DNA of 33,690 nucleotides from Candidatus Omnitrophota bacterium (GCA_026416665.1 JAOAET010000005.1:1-33690), one strand, 5' to 3'. Shown: positions 1,038 to 27,091, numbered from the stretch's first letter. The notes: generated from the sequence alone by a model not told the origin. Numbers and translations are program-made.

Positions 1038-2290
1038 TCAAAATGGCAATATCGCATAAACTTTATCATTATCATGATTAGCAGTGAATGCTACATTTCC
1101 AAAGCTATCCGTCAGGGAACTTGTATCAGCATCTATCCACTTACCATCTACATAAACTTGCGGCCAGACATGTCCGTATGTTCCACTTGAGAAAGTACAA
1201 GCAGTATTATGTTTATAACGAGCAGGAAGGCCTGCCGCCCTAAACAGAGCAACTAACAAATGTGCCAAATCACAACAGTTACCTGAACTAGCATTAAGCA
1301 TACCCTCTGCACCCTTTGAGGTATTATAGTAAAACGCATAGCCTTTATTATTATTAACCCAGTCATAAATCGCTTTTGCCTTTTCATAATCAGTAGTTTT
1401 GCCTAAAATTAATTCATTTGCTTTAGCCTGAATTGCAGTGCTATTTACAGGTAAAAGATATTGTTGCATCTCAGGAGGATAGGAGTTATTAAAGTTAGAA
1501 ACAGTAGAAGAGGACTCTTGAGAAGAGGTAGTATCTCTATCCGCCAAGGTAACCCCTGTTGTATTTTCATTTTTATATTCACTATAAGTTTCTCGATCTT
1601 CTTGGATTTTAATTGTGAGCTGCCCTATTTTGGTATTACGTTTATCTGCTGGATCAGCATCAAGCCATTTACCATCTATTTTTACCTGTGCATAAATACG
1701 TTCTACCGTATCAGGAATACCATCTCCCATACCAGAGGCATTTGTAACTAATGCTCTCTTATACCTTGCCTCAATACCGACAGCGCGACATAAAGCAACA
1801 AAAAGATGAGAAATATCAGGCCCATTACCCTCTTTTTTATCAAGCATCTTTAAAGCACCAGCTGCTGTCCGATAATAAAATTTGTAGGTATAATTTTCAT
1901 GAATATAATATCAAATATCTTCTGCGCCTTTTCTTCATCTGTGGTGCAATCTTTGGTTATCTGGTTAGCTAAATCAATAATCTTTTGGTTATCCGATTCC
2001 GCAAATTTTGTGGGTTTAAGATATTCACTGTCTTTGTTAGAGGTAGTTGTTTTTGAATCCGTTTTATCCTGATTAATAGTTTTCTTCTCCATATTAATAT
2101 TTTCTTCTTCAACAGATGTAGAAAAACCAGCAGGTATAAAAGCAGAATTATTACTTACTGGCATTTCCGAACTAGACGAGGAAGGAAGACTCTCGGGTTT
2201 CTGCCATACAGCCAGTGATGGACACAAACGGCAAATTTCAATCAAAAAGAGTATTAATACAGCAACTGTAAATTTTTTATTCCTTTTCAT
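1038..2290 (-). pseudogene. Secreted tandem transglutaminase-like protein, interrupted by a frameshift near 1906-1914
   Basis: Signal peptide ORF from ATG at 2290 (SD GGGAGGG) ends at 1850. The alternate frame continues YIHENYTYKFYYRTAAGALK directly into ORF 1038..1847 without a stop. Second domain has GNCCDLAHLLVALFRAAGLPARY plus the H/D region typical of transglutaminase cores. Confidence 0.8.
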
Positions 2291-2310
2291 TTTCCATCCC
2301 TCCCAAAAAT

Positions 2311-2356
2311 TAAAAACCGAATTGCCTCTTTTCATTCTTATTTTCGGCAACCCGGT
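2311..2356 (-). terminator. Intrinsic terminator overlapping the aptamer 3' core
   Basis: Minus strand ACCGGGTTGCC ... GGCAATTCGGT (11 bp with two G-U) followed by TTTTT; the 5' arm is the aptamer's conserved GGGTTGCC. Confidence 0.75.
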
Positions 2357-2444
2357 TATCAGATGGATGCTGTAATAAATAATATTATACTTTTCGATCC
2401 GTGGCTTTGGCCGTTTATAACGACCCTTTATTGATAAGAATGAA
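2331..2444 (-). ncRNA. GEMM-I (cyclic-di-GMP-I)-like riboswitch aptamer, variant P2 arm
   Basis: Minus strand: 11-bp closing helix TTCATTCTTAT/ATAAGAATGAA, then CAATAAAG...CCAAAGCCACGG...ACCGGGTTGCCGAAA, matching the GEMM-I 3' core; upstream of a secreted protein gene. Confidence 0.65.
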
Positions 2445-2804
2445 CTTCTCTTTAAGGTTAAAAGTCTTATACCATTTTATCAATTTAAGTTTAACTAATA
2501 AATTTAAGATTGTCAAGCTTGACTATTTAAAGTTTTGAAAAGGTTTTCTTTACTAGAGATTAAAGCAGAAATCTAAAGTTGTAATCAACAACTCATTTCT
2601 TTTTAAAAATAGGTAAACATAATATAGAGATAGTATAAAAACATATATGTTTTAGAAAGAGCTTGCTATAAAACTATTTTTGTTTTAATATGATATTATT
2701 ATATAGAAAATTTTGTTTCTTTATAATAAATAGTCTCTTGTTGAACAGAGACAAATTTTTGGGGTGGGTTTTTTACCTACACACTAAATTAAGAACCTTA
2801 AAAA

Positions 2805-3305
2805 ATGAAATATCTTACTAAAAAATCTTGGTTATATATTTTAAAAACTACTTTCAAAAAATTTATACACAGTAATGATAAGCCGTACAAAATTGCTTTA
2901 GGATTTGCCTTAGGTACTTTCTTGGGAGTACTACCTGGCTCTGGTCCGATTGCTTCTATATTTTTAGCAACAATCTTTCGATTGAACATCCCCGCAACTT
3001 TATTATCCTGCTTATTAACAAATGGGTGGTTTAGTATTATAACATTTATCTTGTCAATTAAAATTGGAGCTGCTATATTGCATTTAGATTGGTACGTTGT
3101 ATATGAAAAGTGGCAAAGATTTATCTATTTTTTTAAGTGGCAAAGTCTTTTGAAAGTAAGCCTTTATGAGATAATTTTACCCGTAATTATTGGCTATTTG
3201 ATAATTTCCTTATCTTTTGGGATATTTGTCTACTTAATAATTTATTTAATCTTGTTTATAAGCAGACGTTATGAAAGTAAACCTAGAATTAATCTTTCCA
3301 GGTAA
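2805..3305 (+). CDS. DUF2062-family membrane protein
   Basis: IHSNDKPYKIALGFALGTFLGVLPGSGPIASIFLATIFRLNIPATLLSCLLTNGW is characteristic. Confidence 0.8.
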   Translation: MKYLTKKSWLYILKTTFKKFIHSNDKPYKIALGFALGTFLGVLPGSGPIASIFLATIFRLNIPATLLSCLLTNGWFSIITFILSIKIGAAILHLDWYVVYEKWQRFIYFFKWQSLLKVSLYEIILPVIIGYLIISLSFGIFVYLIIYLILFISRRYESKPRINLSR

Positions 3306-3522
3306 ACTAAAAGAAAAAGCAATAATTTGTAATTTATGTAAAAAGTTTCATATAGAAGTAAGTATTAAAGAAGCTTCTTTTTCTACGGAAATTGGCTGGG
3401 CATTATTGCAGTTTTCCGGAAGAGAAAAAGAAATCAATTCGGCTATCGAATATCTAAGAAGAGAAGGGGTCAAGATAGAAGATATTACCAAAAAAATTAA
3501 TTATAACCCGCCTAATATTTGA
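3271..3522 (+). CDS. Small NIL-domain-like protein
   Basis: 83 aa, VNLELIFPGKLKEKAIICNLCKKFHIEVSIKEASFSTEIGWALLQFSGREKEINSAIEYLRREGVKIEDI; overlaps the preceding ORF by 35 nt. Confidence 0.7.
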   Translation: MKVNLELIFPGKLKEKAIICNLCKKFHIEVSIKEASFSTEIGWALLQFSGREKEINSAIEYLRREGVKIEDITKKINYNPPNI

Positions 3523-3870
3523 ACTCTTCACTGATAAAAATCCTGTATACTTACCTACCTTACAATTTGAGCTTTTCTTCTCAGGTGTATTTATCTATTT
3601 TTTAACGTACTTTAAACTAATAGCACTTTAAACATAAAAATTCGTCATTTTCCTCAAATTTATGCAACTTTTTCAAAGAATAAGTAAAAATTAGTAAACT
3701 TTACAACCCTTATTAACAGAAAAATACCATTTTCTATAACTTACTTTTCTACAATAAGTTATGATTTTTTAGCTAATTTAAAAAGTTAACATAAGATATA
3801 TTATAAGAAGTAGATTAAACATAAACTTTCAATATTCAGTTAACAAATCAACAAAATAATTTTTTAAAAA

Positions 3871-3905
3871 AGCCTCACATTTATCCTACTAGTGAGGCTT
3901 ACTGA
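3871..3905 (-). terminator. Intrinsic terminator downstream of the 127 aa gene
   Basis: Hairpin AAGCCTCAC...GTGAGGCTT followed on the minus strand by a T run (TTTTTT). Confidence 0.75.
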
Positions 3906-3954
3906 AAAATCAAAAAATGAACTTCTTAGAATTCAAACAAAAAACTGTTCAGGG

Positions 3955-4338
3955 TTATTGTTTTGTATCTAATTTTTTGATGGTTTCTATGTGGATTACG
4001 GAAATAGGTTTTCCTTTAACAAACATCCCAGGCATTATTCTACCACTAATCTCAACTAATGAACCTTCATCATTTAAAATTTCTTTAACTTTTTCTCCTA
4101 GAAGGATGAAGATCCTACCATTTTCATCTTTTATAGCAAGCTCTTTCCAAGGATTATTAGCAAGTTCCGTCATGGAAAGTTTAAAAAGTTCACCCCGAAC
4201 AGTAATTTCTGAACCTTCTTCAAAAGTTTCTGATGTTACCTCTTGAGCAAAACTCATTTTAACTAAGCCGTTATAAGGTATTAAAAAAGCACCTATTGTC
4301 CCATACACAATGGTAAAAATTAAGCACCTTTTTAACAT
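3955..4338 (-). CDS. Secreted hypothetical protein, possibly OB-fold
   Basis: 127 aa, N-terminal signal-like segment, EITVRGELFKL...LVEISGRIMPG pattern; SD GGGAGG before ATG. Confidence 0.6.
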   Translation of the reverse strand: MLKRCLIFTIVYGTIGAFLIPYNGLVKMSFAQEVTSETFEEGSEITVRGELFKLSMTELANNPWKELAIKDENGRIFILLGEKVKEILNDEGSLVEISGRIMPGMFVKGKPISVIHIETIKKLDTKQ

Positions 4339-4414
4339 AAGTCCTCCCTTTTGGTTATTCCCCTTTAAGTAATAAAATAGTTAAGTTAAACCGTAGAATT
4401 TTATTATAGTTAGC

Positions 4415-6196
4415 TTATCTTAACTTTGCAAGTTCTTCTTCAGCCGCTGATTTTACCTTCCACCACCACCCTTGGGTATCCCAGCACTGAGCAAAAGAAA
4501 AATCATCAATTACTTTCTTATAGTTAATTTTGGCTTTTTCTTTATCTTTTTGGTCACGGTAAATATTCCCTAAAAGATAGTATGCTGTTCCTACATCATT
4601 TAGCGCCCAATAATCTGCTTCTCTCCCTGCCGGAGCAAAATTAGTCAAAGAAGCTTGTTGTTTCTTGGCTTCTTTTTCATAACGCTTAATAACCTCATTG
4701 GCAAAAGCAAGGCTTTGCTCATAATTTTTTTCGTTATACACTTTCCACGCTTGTGTCATTAATTCTTGCGAGCTAGTATATTTGCTAAAATCAATAGCCA
4801 TGGGATCATTTTTTTGCTTACTCAAAGAGGTTTTCATTTCTTGGTCTGCACAGGCAAGTATATCTGAATCTGAAATATTTGCTTTTTTAAGCTCCTCAGC
4901 AAGTTTATCGTAAATCTTGTTATATACCTTACTTATGTCTTTTTCATCACCAACTATCACAAACAAGTTGTCCATTACCTCTGTTACTTTCTCACTTATC
5001 TTTTCCCACTCTTGGCTAATCTTCTCTCCCTTGTCTGCCTGTATAACATCTACTACCCCAAACATCTGCGCCTTTTGACCATTACAGTAAATATCTTCCT
5101 CATTGCTCTCCTGTACCTCATGCCCACGAACTGTAATCTCTTTGCCAACATAAGCTTCCCAGTCAATCGCAGACATCTCATCCGCTCCTACCTTACAATC
5201 TTTATCAACATCAAAGCCATCTTTACGCGCCGTTAAAAGATAGTAAGTGCCTTTCCCATCTTTAAGAAAATACCTGCCTTGTTCATCCTTTACCACTGTC
5301 CCCGTAATAGTAGGCTCCCAGAAAATCGGCCTAGGATCATTAAAATATTTCGTGTCTATTAATTCTCCATTCTTGTATGTATCTTGCCGATACATATACC
5401 GTGAATATTTCCTCTTATCATCATCTTTCTTCCGATTACCCGCAGTAAAGGCATAATACTCAACTTTGGTAATATTTCCTTTATCATCATAAAAAAACTT
5501 TTGCACAATATTGTATCCATCTGCTCCTTTACCCGGATCAGTAGCATTGGTATCTCGCCAAGTATAGTCTTTTTTGGATTCCGAAGTTACATAGTTAATC
5601 TTTCCTTTAAGATTACCCTCAGTGTGATAATGCGCCATTAAATGCGAACTTGGGTCATATTGGTATAAGATGACACCTTTACTACTGTCTTTTATTGTTA
5701 CTGTCTTAATTGAACCATCATCACTTTTCTCTATCTCTACTTTATGTTTTGTTTCTTCAAATTTTAGTGCCGTTAACCATTCGCTGGTTAAACCAGAAAT
5801 ATCACTTAGGTTAACGGTTACCTCTTGACCAGTACTTGTATCAATTGCCTTGATACTGGTAATCTGTTTATTGCTAGTATCAGTGGTTGTAGCTTTCTTG
5901 GTAGTTGTATCTGTCTTAGTGTTTGATTTAGTGGTAGTTGTAGCTGTCTTGGTGTTTGATTTAGAGGTAGAAGTGGTGTCCTTATCTGTGGTAGTGGCTT
6001 TGGAAGTTGATTGTGTAGTGCTCACCGCTGTCCCAGCACTCTTAAATGAAGAAGGAGCAATACTCTGTTGATACTTATAACCGATTTTATTGAAATCATC
6101 TCCGTAATAATTATATACCCCTGCTCCTGCCGCAGCATAACTTAACTGCGTCCAACAAAATAATAAACATATTAACCCAACTGCTATCCTTTTCAT
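4415..6196 (-). CDS. Secreted hypothetical protein with Thr/Ser/Lys-rich linker and C-terminal TPR-like repeats
   Basis: 593 aa, signal peptide, low-complexity TTSKSNTKTATTTTKSN region, C-terminal ADYWALNDVGTAYYLLGNIYRDQKDKEKAKINYKKVI; SD GGGGAAGG. Confidence 0.75.
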   Translation of the reverse strand: MKRIAVGLICLLFCWTQLSYAAAGAGVYNYYGDDFNKIGYKYQQSIAPSSFKSAGTAVSTTQSTSKATTTDKDTTSTSKSNTKTATTTTKSNTKTDTTTKKATTTDTSNKQITSIKAIDTSTGQEVTVNLSDISGLTSEWLTALKFEETKHKVEIEKSDDGSIKTVTIKDSSKGVILYQYDPSSHLMAHYHTEGNLKGKINYVTSESKKDYTWRDTNATDPGKGADGYNIVQKFFYDDKGNITKVEYYAFTAGNRKKDDDKRKYSRYMYRQDTYKNGELIDTKYFNDPRPIFWEPTITGTVVKDEQGRYFLKDGKGTYYLLTARKDGFDVDKDCKVGADEMSAIDWEAYVGKEITVRGHEVQESNEEDIYCNGQKAQMFGVVDVIQADKGEKISQEWEKISEKVTEVMDNLFVIVGDEKDISKVYNKIYDKLAEELKKANISDSDILACADQEMKTSLSKQKNDPMAIDFSKYTSSQELMTQAWKVYNEKNYEQSLAFANEVIKRYEKEAKKQQASLTNFAPAGREADYWALNDVGTAYYLLGNIYRDQKDKEKAKINYKKVIDDFSFAQCWDTQGWWWKVKSAAEEELAKLR

Positions 6197-6261
6197 TTTA
6201 CCTTCCCCTCGTTTTTATGATGTTTTTCCTTTTATCCCCCCATTTCTATTACTAAATAACT

Positions 6262-6304
6262 AAAAAACCTGGTTTCGAATGAATGATCTTCTTCGGCAAC
6301 CAGG
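6262..6304 (-). terminator. Intrinsic terminator overlapping the aptamer 3' core
   Basis: Minus strand CCTGGTT-GC-CGAAGAA-GATCA-TTCATTCG-A-AACCAGG followed by TTTTTT. Confidence 0.8.
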
Positions 6305-6394
6305 CTAAAAAAGCAACAATCACAAAAATCTCCGATGATTTTTACCGTGGCTTTCCCGCATACAATTAGATATGCGAGCTTTATCGGAAGATCA
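6284..6394 (-). ncRNA. GEMM-I (cyclic-di-GMP-I)-like riboswitch aptamer, variant P2 arm
   Basis: Minus strand: 8-bp closing helix TGATCTTC/GAAGATCA, then CGATAAAG-CTCGCATA..TATGCGGG-AAAGCCACGG...AGCCTGGTTGCCGAA. Confidence 0.65.
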
Positions 6395-6399
6395 CTACA

Positions 6400-6428
6400 A
6401 GTATAACCAGCTAATAGCTAATTTTCAA
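6400..6428 (-). promoter_or_regulatory. Sigma-70-type promoter for the 6.3 kb riboswitch leader
   Basis: Minus strand TTGAAA-N17-TATACT immediately upstream of the aptamer. Confidence 0.55.
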
Positions 6429-19372: not shown

Positions 19373-21043
19373 CTAAATTTGCTCTTGGGTTACCCGGATT
19401 ACTTCTTCAATGGTTGTAATCCCTGCCTTGACCTTTTGCCATCCTGCATCACGCAGAAGTTTCATGCCTTCACTGATTGCCTGCTGTCTGATTTGTTGCG
19501 AAGGAACTTTTTTAAGGATAAGTTCACGAATTGAATCTGATATACGCATCATTTCAAATATACCTGTTCTACCTTGGTAGCCAGTAAAGCGGCACGCATC
19601 ACATCCCTTACCGTGAAATAATGTTATTCCATTACTGTCTTTGTCAAACTGACGCAAAAGCTCGAGACTCGGCATATAAGATTCTCTACACACAGGACAG
19701 ATAATACGCACTAATCTCTGTGCAATAATCAATAAAAGAGATGAAGAAACTAAAAATGAATCAATCCCCATATCCAGCAACCGAGTAATTGCACCAGCAG
19801 CGTCATTGGTATGTAAGGTACTAAAAACCAAATGGCCAGTTAAAGATGTTCTTACTGCAAGCTCTGCTGTTTCTGTATCACGAATTTCTCCCACCATCAT
19901 TACATCAGGATCATGTCGCAACATTGAACGTAAGGCATTAGCAAAAGTAAAATCTATCTTAGGCTCAACTTGCATTTGAGTAACACCTTTTAATTGATAT
20001 TCTATGGGGTCTTCAATAGTAAGAATCTTTCTCTCTGAAGAGTTAATCTTGTTAAGACAAGCATAAAGAGTTGTTGTCTTTCCACTTCCAGTAGGACCTG
20101 TAACTAAAATAATGCCATATGGACGAGAAATTATTTCCTCTAAAGTCCTTTTCTCATCTGTAGTTAACCCCAATGATTCTAAACCAATAATAGGGTTTGA
20201 ACGGGGCAAAAGGCGAATACCGATACTTTCTCCAAAAGGTGTAGGCATTATAGAAACACGTAAATCATACATCTCTTGGCCCATTTTGATATCTACTCTT
20301 CCATCCTGAGGCCTACGCTTCTCGGCAATATCTAAATTAGCCATAACTTTTATCCGAGAAGAAATTGACGACTGAAAATCTTTAATATTAGCTGGACAAG
20401 GGACTTCATAGAGAACCCCATCAATACGATAACGCACTCTTAAACTATCTTCAAAAGGTTCAAAGTGAATATCAGTTGCCCTTTGTTTAATAGCATCGGA
20501 TAATACCTGATTAATAAACTTTATTACAGAAGGGTCTATGTGTTCTTCTCTTATATCTTGTTTTTTCTGTTGCTTAATAATTTCAAAACTGGCTGGCTCC
20601 TCCTGTGCCATTGCCTCAAGTGTATCTGCACCCAGACCATAGACACTTTTAATTGCCTCTAAAATATCCTTGTGTAAACTTAAAACTGGCTTAACTGAAC
20701 AATTGCACAGAAGCGCTATTTCATCAAGTACAGATATACAGAAAGGGTCATTTATAGCAAGATCTAATTGATTTTGCTTTATTCTAAGGGGCATTACCGA
20801 ATAATAAGTAACTATCTTTGCAGGAATATATTTTGTGATAGAAGTATCTATAGTCTCAATATTTATTCTCTCAAAAGGAATGTTTAAAAGTTCTGAAATA
20901 TTTTTTAGAAGTACCTCTTCAGAGATTCCTGATTTTATAGTAAGCAGACGCAATAAAGACTGACCGGACGTTTTTGTTTCAAGCAAACACTGTTTCCAAA
21001 CATCTTCTTGAATATCTAACTGTTTATATATGGGTATGGACAT
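19373..21043 (-). CDS. gspE: Type II secretion/type IV pilus ATPase GspE
   Basis: Walker A GPTGSGKTTTLYA; GEIRDTETAELAVRTSLTGHLVFSTLHTNDA; CPVC...CDAC zinc motif. Confidence 0.95.
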   Translation of the reverse strand: MSIPIYKQLDIQEDVWKQCLLETKTSGQSLLRLLTIKSGISEEVLLKNISELLNIPFERINIETIDTSITKYIPAKIVTYYSVMPLRIKQNQLDLAINDPFCISVLDEIALLCNCSVKPVLSLHKDILEAIKSVYGLGADTLEAMAQEEPASFEIIKQQKKQDIREEHIDPSVIKFINQVLSDAIKQRATDIHFEPFEDSLRVRYRIDGVLYEVPCPANIKDFQSSISSRIKVMANLDIAEKRRPQDGRVDIKMGQEMYDLRVSIMPTPFGESIGIRLLPRSNPIIGLESLGLTTDEKRTLEEIISRPYGIILVTGPTGSGKTTTLYACLNKINSSERKILTIEDPIEYQLKGVTQMQVEPKIDFTFANALRSMLRHDPDVMMVGEIRDTETAELAVRTSLTGHLVFSTLHTNDAAGAITRLLDMGIDSFLVSSSLLLIIAQRLVRIICPVCRESYMPSLELLRQFDKDSNGITLFHGKGCDACRFTGYQGRTGIFEMMRISDSIRELILKKVPSQQIRQQAISEGMKLLRDAGWQKVKAGITTIEEVIRVTQEQI

Positions 21044-26995: not shown

Positions 26996-27091
26996 GATTT
27001 CGGCAACCAAGCTACCATGGCCATTTTAACTGACTTTAGGTCTTGGCTTTGCGCCCTATCCTTTCGGATAGTTTGCCTTTATCGGTTCATG
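26993..27091 (-). ncRNA. Cyclic-di-GMP-I (GEMM-I) riboswitch
   Basis: Minus strand AACCGATAAAGGCAAACTATCCGAAAGGATAGGGCGCAAAGCC...AGCTTGGTTGCCGAAA, closed by CATGA/TCATG; GNRA tetraloop and GGCAAAC/GCGCAAAGCC core. Confidence 0.9.

Follow-up and report, generated by a model that had tools for sequence, protein, structure and literature searches.

The window analysed here is a whole contig of 33,690 nucleotides (nt) from Candidatus Omnitrophota bacterium (GCA_026416665.1 JAOAET010000005.1:1-33690), which is contig C19 of a genome (G000) of 1.6 Mb and 94% completeness. Its minus strand carries two leaders upstream of genes for exported proteins, and each leader contains an aptamer resembling the class I riboswitches for cyclic diguanosine monophosphate (c-di-GMP-I or GEMM-I, Rfam family RF01051). 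Reading of the sequence identified AUAAAG (ATAAAG in the DNA), AAAGCCACGG and GGUUGCCGAA / GGTTGCCGAA in both leaders; the arm GGCAAA...GNRA...GACGC, which the canonical copy at 26999-27087(-) has, is missing from both. The ligand-side arm is an unbroken, or straight, helix. The parts of the leaders are listed below in the position numbering of Vc2, following PMC3764141 and PMC4744006, with scores from R1, a covariance model built from 6 straight-arm sequences.

2488..2516, minus strand: leader 1, sigma70-like promoter TTGACA-17-TAAACT (consensus match only)
2343..2436, minus strand: leader 1, straight-arm c-di-GMP-I-like aptamer (L007; R1 84.2 bits, itself an R1 seed)
2434..2442, minus strand: leader 1, P1 5' strand CATTCTTAT, 9 base pairs (bp) with ATAAGAATG at 2333-2341 (sequence and folding)
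2409..2425, minus strand: leader 1, ligand-side arm of 7 bp, GGUCGUU-AUA-AACGGCC, with no internal loop and no GNRA loop
2395..2408, minus strand: leader 1, A47-A48-A49 and second-arm 5' strand AAAGCCACGGAUCG
2343..2356, minus strand: leader 1, aptamer 3' strand ACCGGGUUGCCGAA, in which position 83 is A (2356) and C92 is 2347
2310..2326, minus strand: leader 1, terminator 3' strand GGCAATTCGG and T run, forming a 12-bp stem with the aptamer 3' strand
6400..6428, minus strand: leader 2, sigma70-like promoter TTGAAA-17-TATACT, ~6 nt before P1 (consensus match only)
6292..6389, minus strand: leader 2, straight-arm c-di-GMP-I-like aptamer (L013; R1 72.7 bits, itself an R1 seed)
6387..6394, minus strand: leader 2, P1 5' strand TGATCTTC, 8 bp with GAAGATCA at 6284-6291
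6355..6378, minus strand: leader 2, ligand-side arm of 9 bp, CUCGCAUAU...GUAUGCGGG
6292..6306, minus strand: leader 2, aptamer 3' strand AGCCUGGUUGCCGAA, in which position 83 is G (6305) and C92 is 6296
6262..6274, minus strand: leader 2, terminator 3' strand AACCAGG and six T, matching the unusual CCUGG of the aptamer
26999..27087, minus strand: for comparison, ordinary c-di-GMP-I aptamer with a GAAA loop and a CCUAA...AUGG receptor (RF01051)

Comparisons with Rfam showed that both leaders score under the RF01051 cut-off of 35 bits (29.2 bits for leader 1 and 16.7 bits for leader 2), so neither is an ordinary member of the family. The top Rfam match of leader 2 is RF03167 (15.9 bits, cut-off 59). 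The 27-kb copy, at 78.6 bits against RF01051, is the sole c-di-GMP-I aptamer in the window above the Rfam cut-off. Across the whole genome, six aptamers exceed the cut-off and four straight-arm aptamers fall below it, namely the two leaders, L009 on contig C32 and L012 on contig C57. A shared core lacking the canonical tetraloop arm, which an earlier note on this DNA had described, is thus confirmed by both sequence and Rfam. The hairpins of that description (GTT-ATA-AAC and CGCATA...TATGCG) are in fact longer, with 7 bp and 9 bp. In a looped aptamer, two base pairs come after G20, then an AAA/GAC internal loop holding C44, a GNRA hairpin and finally A47-A48-A49. In the leaders, the unbroken helix stacks directly between G20 and A47. 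The P1 helix is present in both, and the second arm starts with AGCC-A-CGG and ends with CCGGGUU in leader 1 and CCUGGUU in leader 2; 93.1% of the second-arm cells are paired across the class.

The straight arm recurs in related genomes. Model R1, built on alignment A4 with L012 left out, and model R2, built from 22 sequences, were used to search the family, the order, the class and a sample of the phylum. Both models also pick up looped aptamers, and the matches were therefore sorted by arm type. The searches yielded at least 28 distinct straight-arm sequences in Omnitrophota, four of them in G000 and the others mainly in 12 other genera, with E values down to about 1e-12 per genome. They belong to families f1, f6 and f38 and, less clearly, f34. 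L012, absent from the R1 seeds, was still recovered (E 9e-5). Its structure according to the covariance model is CGAAAAG-CUCCUU...AAGGGG with an inner hairpin, which contradicts a reading of this locus as AUAAAG-UAGC...GGGG. Similarly, a short-arm reading of L034 was replaced by an 11-bp arm, GGUUUUAUUAG...CUAAUAAAGCC. The match at L014 is weak (E 1.3) and probably fortuitous. When 84,980 species were scanned with a strict pattern, two Omnitrophota contigs were the only ones with the short-arm form, although so strict a pattern cannot prove its absence elsewhere. No paper describing the straight-arm variant was found in the open-access literature searched.

Among 22 aligned members, two-sided changes occur at all five arm pairs, with 98.5% and 92.7% of the cells paired, and the switch of the outer arm pairs from CC/GG to GG/CC is visible directly in the sequences. 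The covariation of the whole structure in these members is 0.487, compared with 0.151 for shuffles (0/500) and no more than 0.109 for slid structures, the latter comparison being partly favoured because the alignment was fitted to the tested structure. Since the models recover more copies and the arm covaries, the straight-arm leaders are not chance resemblances. This bears out the proposal that the leaders form a class of GEMM-I-related variants, in which the arm is altered and the tetraloop-receptor contact is missing.

The straight arms have lost the contacts that dock the two arms on each other. The inter-helix pair C44-G83 is universally conserved in c-di-GMP-I aptamers according to PMC4744006, and PMC3764141 describes it as important for holding the two arms parallel. 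C44 is absent in the straight arms, including those of both leaders. G is found at position 83 in 95/97 looped aptamers vs. 10/28 straight aptamers (Fisher p = 9e-13), indicating that both sides of the docking pair tend to go together. Removal of the six model seeds leaves G83 in 8/22 straight aptamers (p = 6e-11), and a conservative count collapsed by hand to genera gives a residue other than G in 9/13 straight genera vs. 2 of an assumed 50 looped ones (p = 1e-6), although relatedness is not fully controlled in these statistics. Seeding the models with A83-rich sequences would raise the share of A83 among looped aptamers as well; the ascertainment bias therefore runs against the result. An apical GNRA loop caps 9/28 straight arms vs. 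88/97 looped ones, and a tetraloop receptor of the 11-nt type, which is optional in c-di-GMP-I, is present in 0/28 and 10/97, respectively. The arms might still dock by another contact that is invisible in the sequence, leaving the fold canonical in outline, and some straight arms do end in GNRA loops (L030 GUAA, L076 GCGA, L069 GCAA) for which another receptor is possible. However, no loop or receptor sequence is common to the class, and both sides of C44-G83 are lost in most members, which makes such alternative docking hardly probable. The comparisons suggest that docking contacts described as universal are dispensable in c-di-GMP-I aptamers.

The binding pocket is retained. The published c-di-GMP contacts are G20, A47, A48 and C92 (PMC3764141, PMC4744006), and 28/28 straight-arm sequences retain G20, A47 and C92. 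The genome encodes seven GGDEF domains, all with Asp where Hypr enzymes have Ser, a position that is taken here to separate c-di-GMP-making from cyclic GMP-AMP (cGAMP)-making GGDEF enzymes, and it also encodes 18 PilZ domains above the cut-off. In cGAMP riboswitches (GEMM-Ib), position 20 is A instead of G, and riboswitch variants with altered specificity exist. The altered arm could make the aptamer sense cGAMP, cyclic di-adenosine monophosphate (c-di-AMP), the linear dinucleotide pGpG or another nucleotide, as the change in arm and docking and the single DAC-domain c-di-AMP synthase of G000 might suggest. However, the cGAMP-type change of G20 to A is not seen, the GGDEF domains are not of the Hypr type and a domain search found no SMODS cyclase in G000. 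Furthermore, one genomic place holds a looped aptamer in one species and a straight aptamer in its sister species: near a gene that is 82% identical between the two, G000 has the looped aptamer L003 and G001 the straight 11-bp L034. Only this upstream neighbour is conserved; the comparison gave no support for the genes immediately after L003 and L034 being orthologues. A changed ligand is accordingly considered very unlikely, and the altered dinucleotide specificity raised in the earlier note is not supported, given the c-di-GMP-type pocket and GGDEF residues. The probability is equally slight for a separate class derived several times from c-di-GMP-I, in which undocking has unclamped the pocket and shifted the ligand preference, for example to pGpG or to mixed dinucleotides. 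The ligand of the straight-arm aptamers is probably unchanged and c-di-GMP, with an altered affinity or kinetics being plausible.

In both leaders, the aptamer shares a strand with the intrinsic terminator that follows it. In leader 1, AACCGGGTTGCC of the aptamer pairs with GGCAATTCGGTT, which runs into a T run, and 0/300 shuffles pair equally well; in leader 2, AGCCTGGTT pairs with AACCAGGTT, which likewise runs into a T run. At 23/29 straight-arm loci, the aptamer 3' strand serves as the terminator 5' strand at p <= 0.01 compared with shuffled downstream sequence. Terminators of this kind are common in looped Omnitrophota aptamers too. The earlier note mentions neither this shared strand nor the deeper change, the loss of C44-G83. 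As the ligand-bound aptamer and the terminator are mutually exclusive, the output is expected to be ON with c-di-GMP.

Four looped aptamers of G000 (L002, L004, L005 and L006, on contigs C32, C11, C13 and C31) have separate downstream terminators that seemingly do not use the aptamer strand, and the opposite (OFF) logic is possible for them.

The switch strands also bear on the possibility that the leaders are degenerate c-di-GMP-I riboswitches en route to loss, which bind no ligand and leave the terminator alone to set a basal level. Scores under the Rfam cut-off, the missing tertiary contacts and the second-arm mismatch of leader 2 would fit such decay. However, the pocket letters do not vary while the arm keeps changing on both sides of its pairs, the class is found in several families, and the terminators still match the aptamer strand, as in leader 2, where CCUGG is compensated by CCAGG. 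Degeneration therefore appears unlikely.

The most probable reading, at roughly 0.7, is that the two leaders control transcription as riboswitches whose aptamer is an undocked architectural variant of c-di-GMP-I and still responds to c-di-GMP. By sequence, the pocket letters are kept, while the internal loop, the receptor, in most cases G83 and usually also the GNRA loop are gone. Binding of c-di-GMP at the P1/P2/P3 junction would stabilise P1 and the second arm, the stabilised aptamer would withhold the shared strand from the terminator, and transcription would continue into the exported-protein genes. The pocket, without docking of the arms, would be held only by P1, the stacking of A47/A48/A49 and the two helices, and affinity or kinetics may be tuned thereby. 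Several observations weigh against this assignment. Leader 1 has an A where G14 usually caps P1, and leader 2, which is the less typical leader, retains G83 and contains a C-U mismatch in its second arm. RNAfold prefers the terminator fold over the aptamer fold in both leaders (-34.5 vs. -27.5 kcal/mol in leader 1 and -46.1 vs. -35.7 kcal/mol in leader 2), a preference that is expected without ligand and in a calculation that cannot show reversal by ligand. Since the pair described as universal and the tetraloop-receptor contact are missing, binding could also be weak or absent.

The genes behind the two leaders are as follows.

1850..2290, minus strand: leader 1 gene, exported protein of no Pfam family (ATG at 2290, GGGAGGG upstream)
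1038-1847: transglutaminase-core protein, after the leader 1 gene
4415..6196, minus strand: leader 2 gene, exported, Thr-rich, TPR-containing protein of 593 amino acids

The other straight-arm copies mostly precede proteins with signal-peptide-like starts, as judged by eye, and one exported downstream family is common to G000 and G018 (27% identity, E 3e-44). Behind the canonical 27-kb copy lies a type II secretion/pilus operon encoding a GspC-like protein, PilN, a secretin, an MshEN-bearing ATPase and GspF. Coordination of the export machinery and the exported proteins by c-di-GMP would form a coherent, if unproven, picture. The MshEN domain, a known binder of c-di-GMP, is located in the ATPase at 19373-21043 of the window. 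A gap of 3 nt separates the end of the canonical aptamer from an ATG of the GspC-like gene; a terminator is absent and a ribosome site is not evident, which suggests translation control or an unusual start.

Further arrangements of c-di-GMP-I-like aptamers were observed in the searched genomes. Straight-arm aptamers form close tandem pairs on one strand at L071 1729-2006 (contig C111 of G064) and L148 1501-1887 (contig C138 of G306). Arrays mixing straight and looped aptamers at G064 C26:174541-189639 and G063 C23:71535-86922 (L072, L069) sit among genes for large exported proteins. The c-di-GMP-I aptamer at G000 C35:26667-26880(-) (L008, L011, L115) has a branched ligand-side arm enlarged by ~75 nt, in which two additional hairpins stand between GACG and CAAAGCC, and a similar enlarged arm is found at G064 C12:18262-18402 (L094).

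Tetraloop-receptor docking and the inter-helix pair count as structural hallmarks of c-di-GMP-I, and the pair as universal. A natural class with the pocket but neither pair partner would allow a direct test of the role of docking in affinity, kinetics and selectivity. In G000, about 40% of such switches escape Rfam (4/10 clear ones), and the c-di-GMP regulons of Omnitrophota are therefore undercounted.

Comparisons with known systems place the straight-arm aptamers close to c-di-GMP-I in their probable working and outside RF01051 as defined, because they fall below its cut-off and lack the internal loop and the inter-helix pair. Like RF01051, they have the P1/P2/P3 junction, A18 and G20 in J1/2, A47-A48-A49, C92, the second arm AGCC-A-CGG with its two-nucleotide bulge and a terminator-coupled platform. 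Unlike RF01051, they have no P2 internal loop (AAA/GAC), no 11-nt receptor and no C44, and mostly neither the GNRA loop nor G83. None of 20 straight aptamers compared with Rfam reached the cut-off of its own best-matching c-di-GMP family. For many of them this is c-di-GMP-I-GGC (RF03167), with at most 36.2 bits vs. a cut-off of 59; that family has G47 and a GCAAA...GAAA...GACGC arm, whereas the straight class has A47 in 28/28 and no such arm. The cGAMP-binding GEMM-Ib shares the overall scaffold and is defined by A20, in contrast to the G20 of all 28 straight aptamers. The looped aptamers of Omnitrophota, such as L003, have the same second arm and shared-strand terminator but keep G83 and the internal loop with C44.

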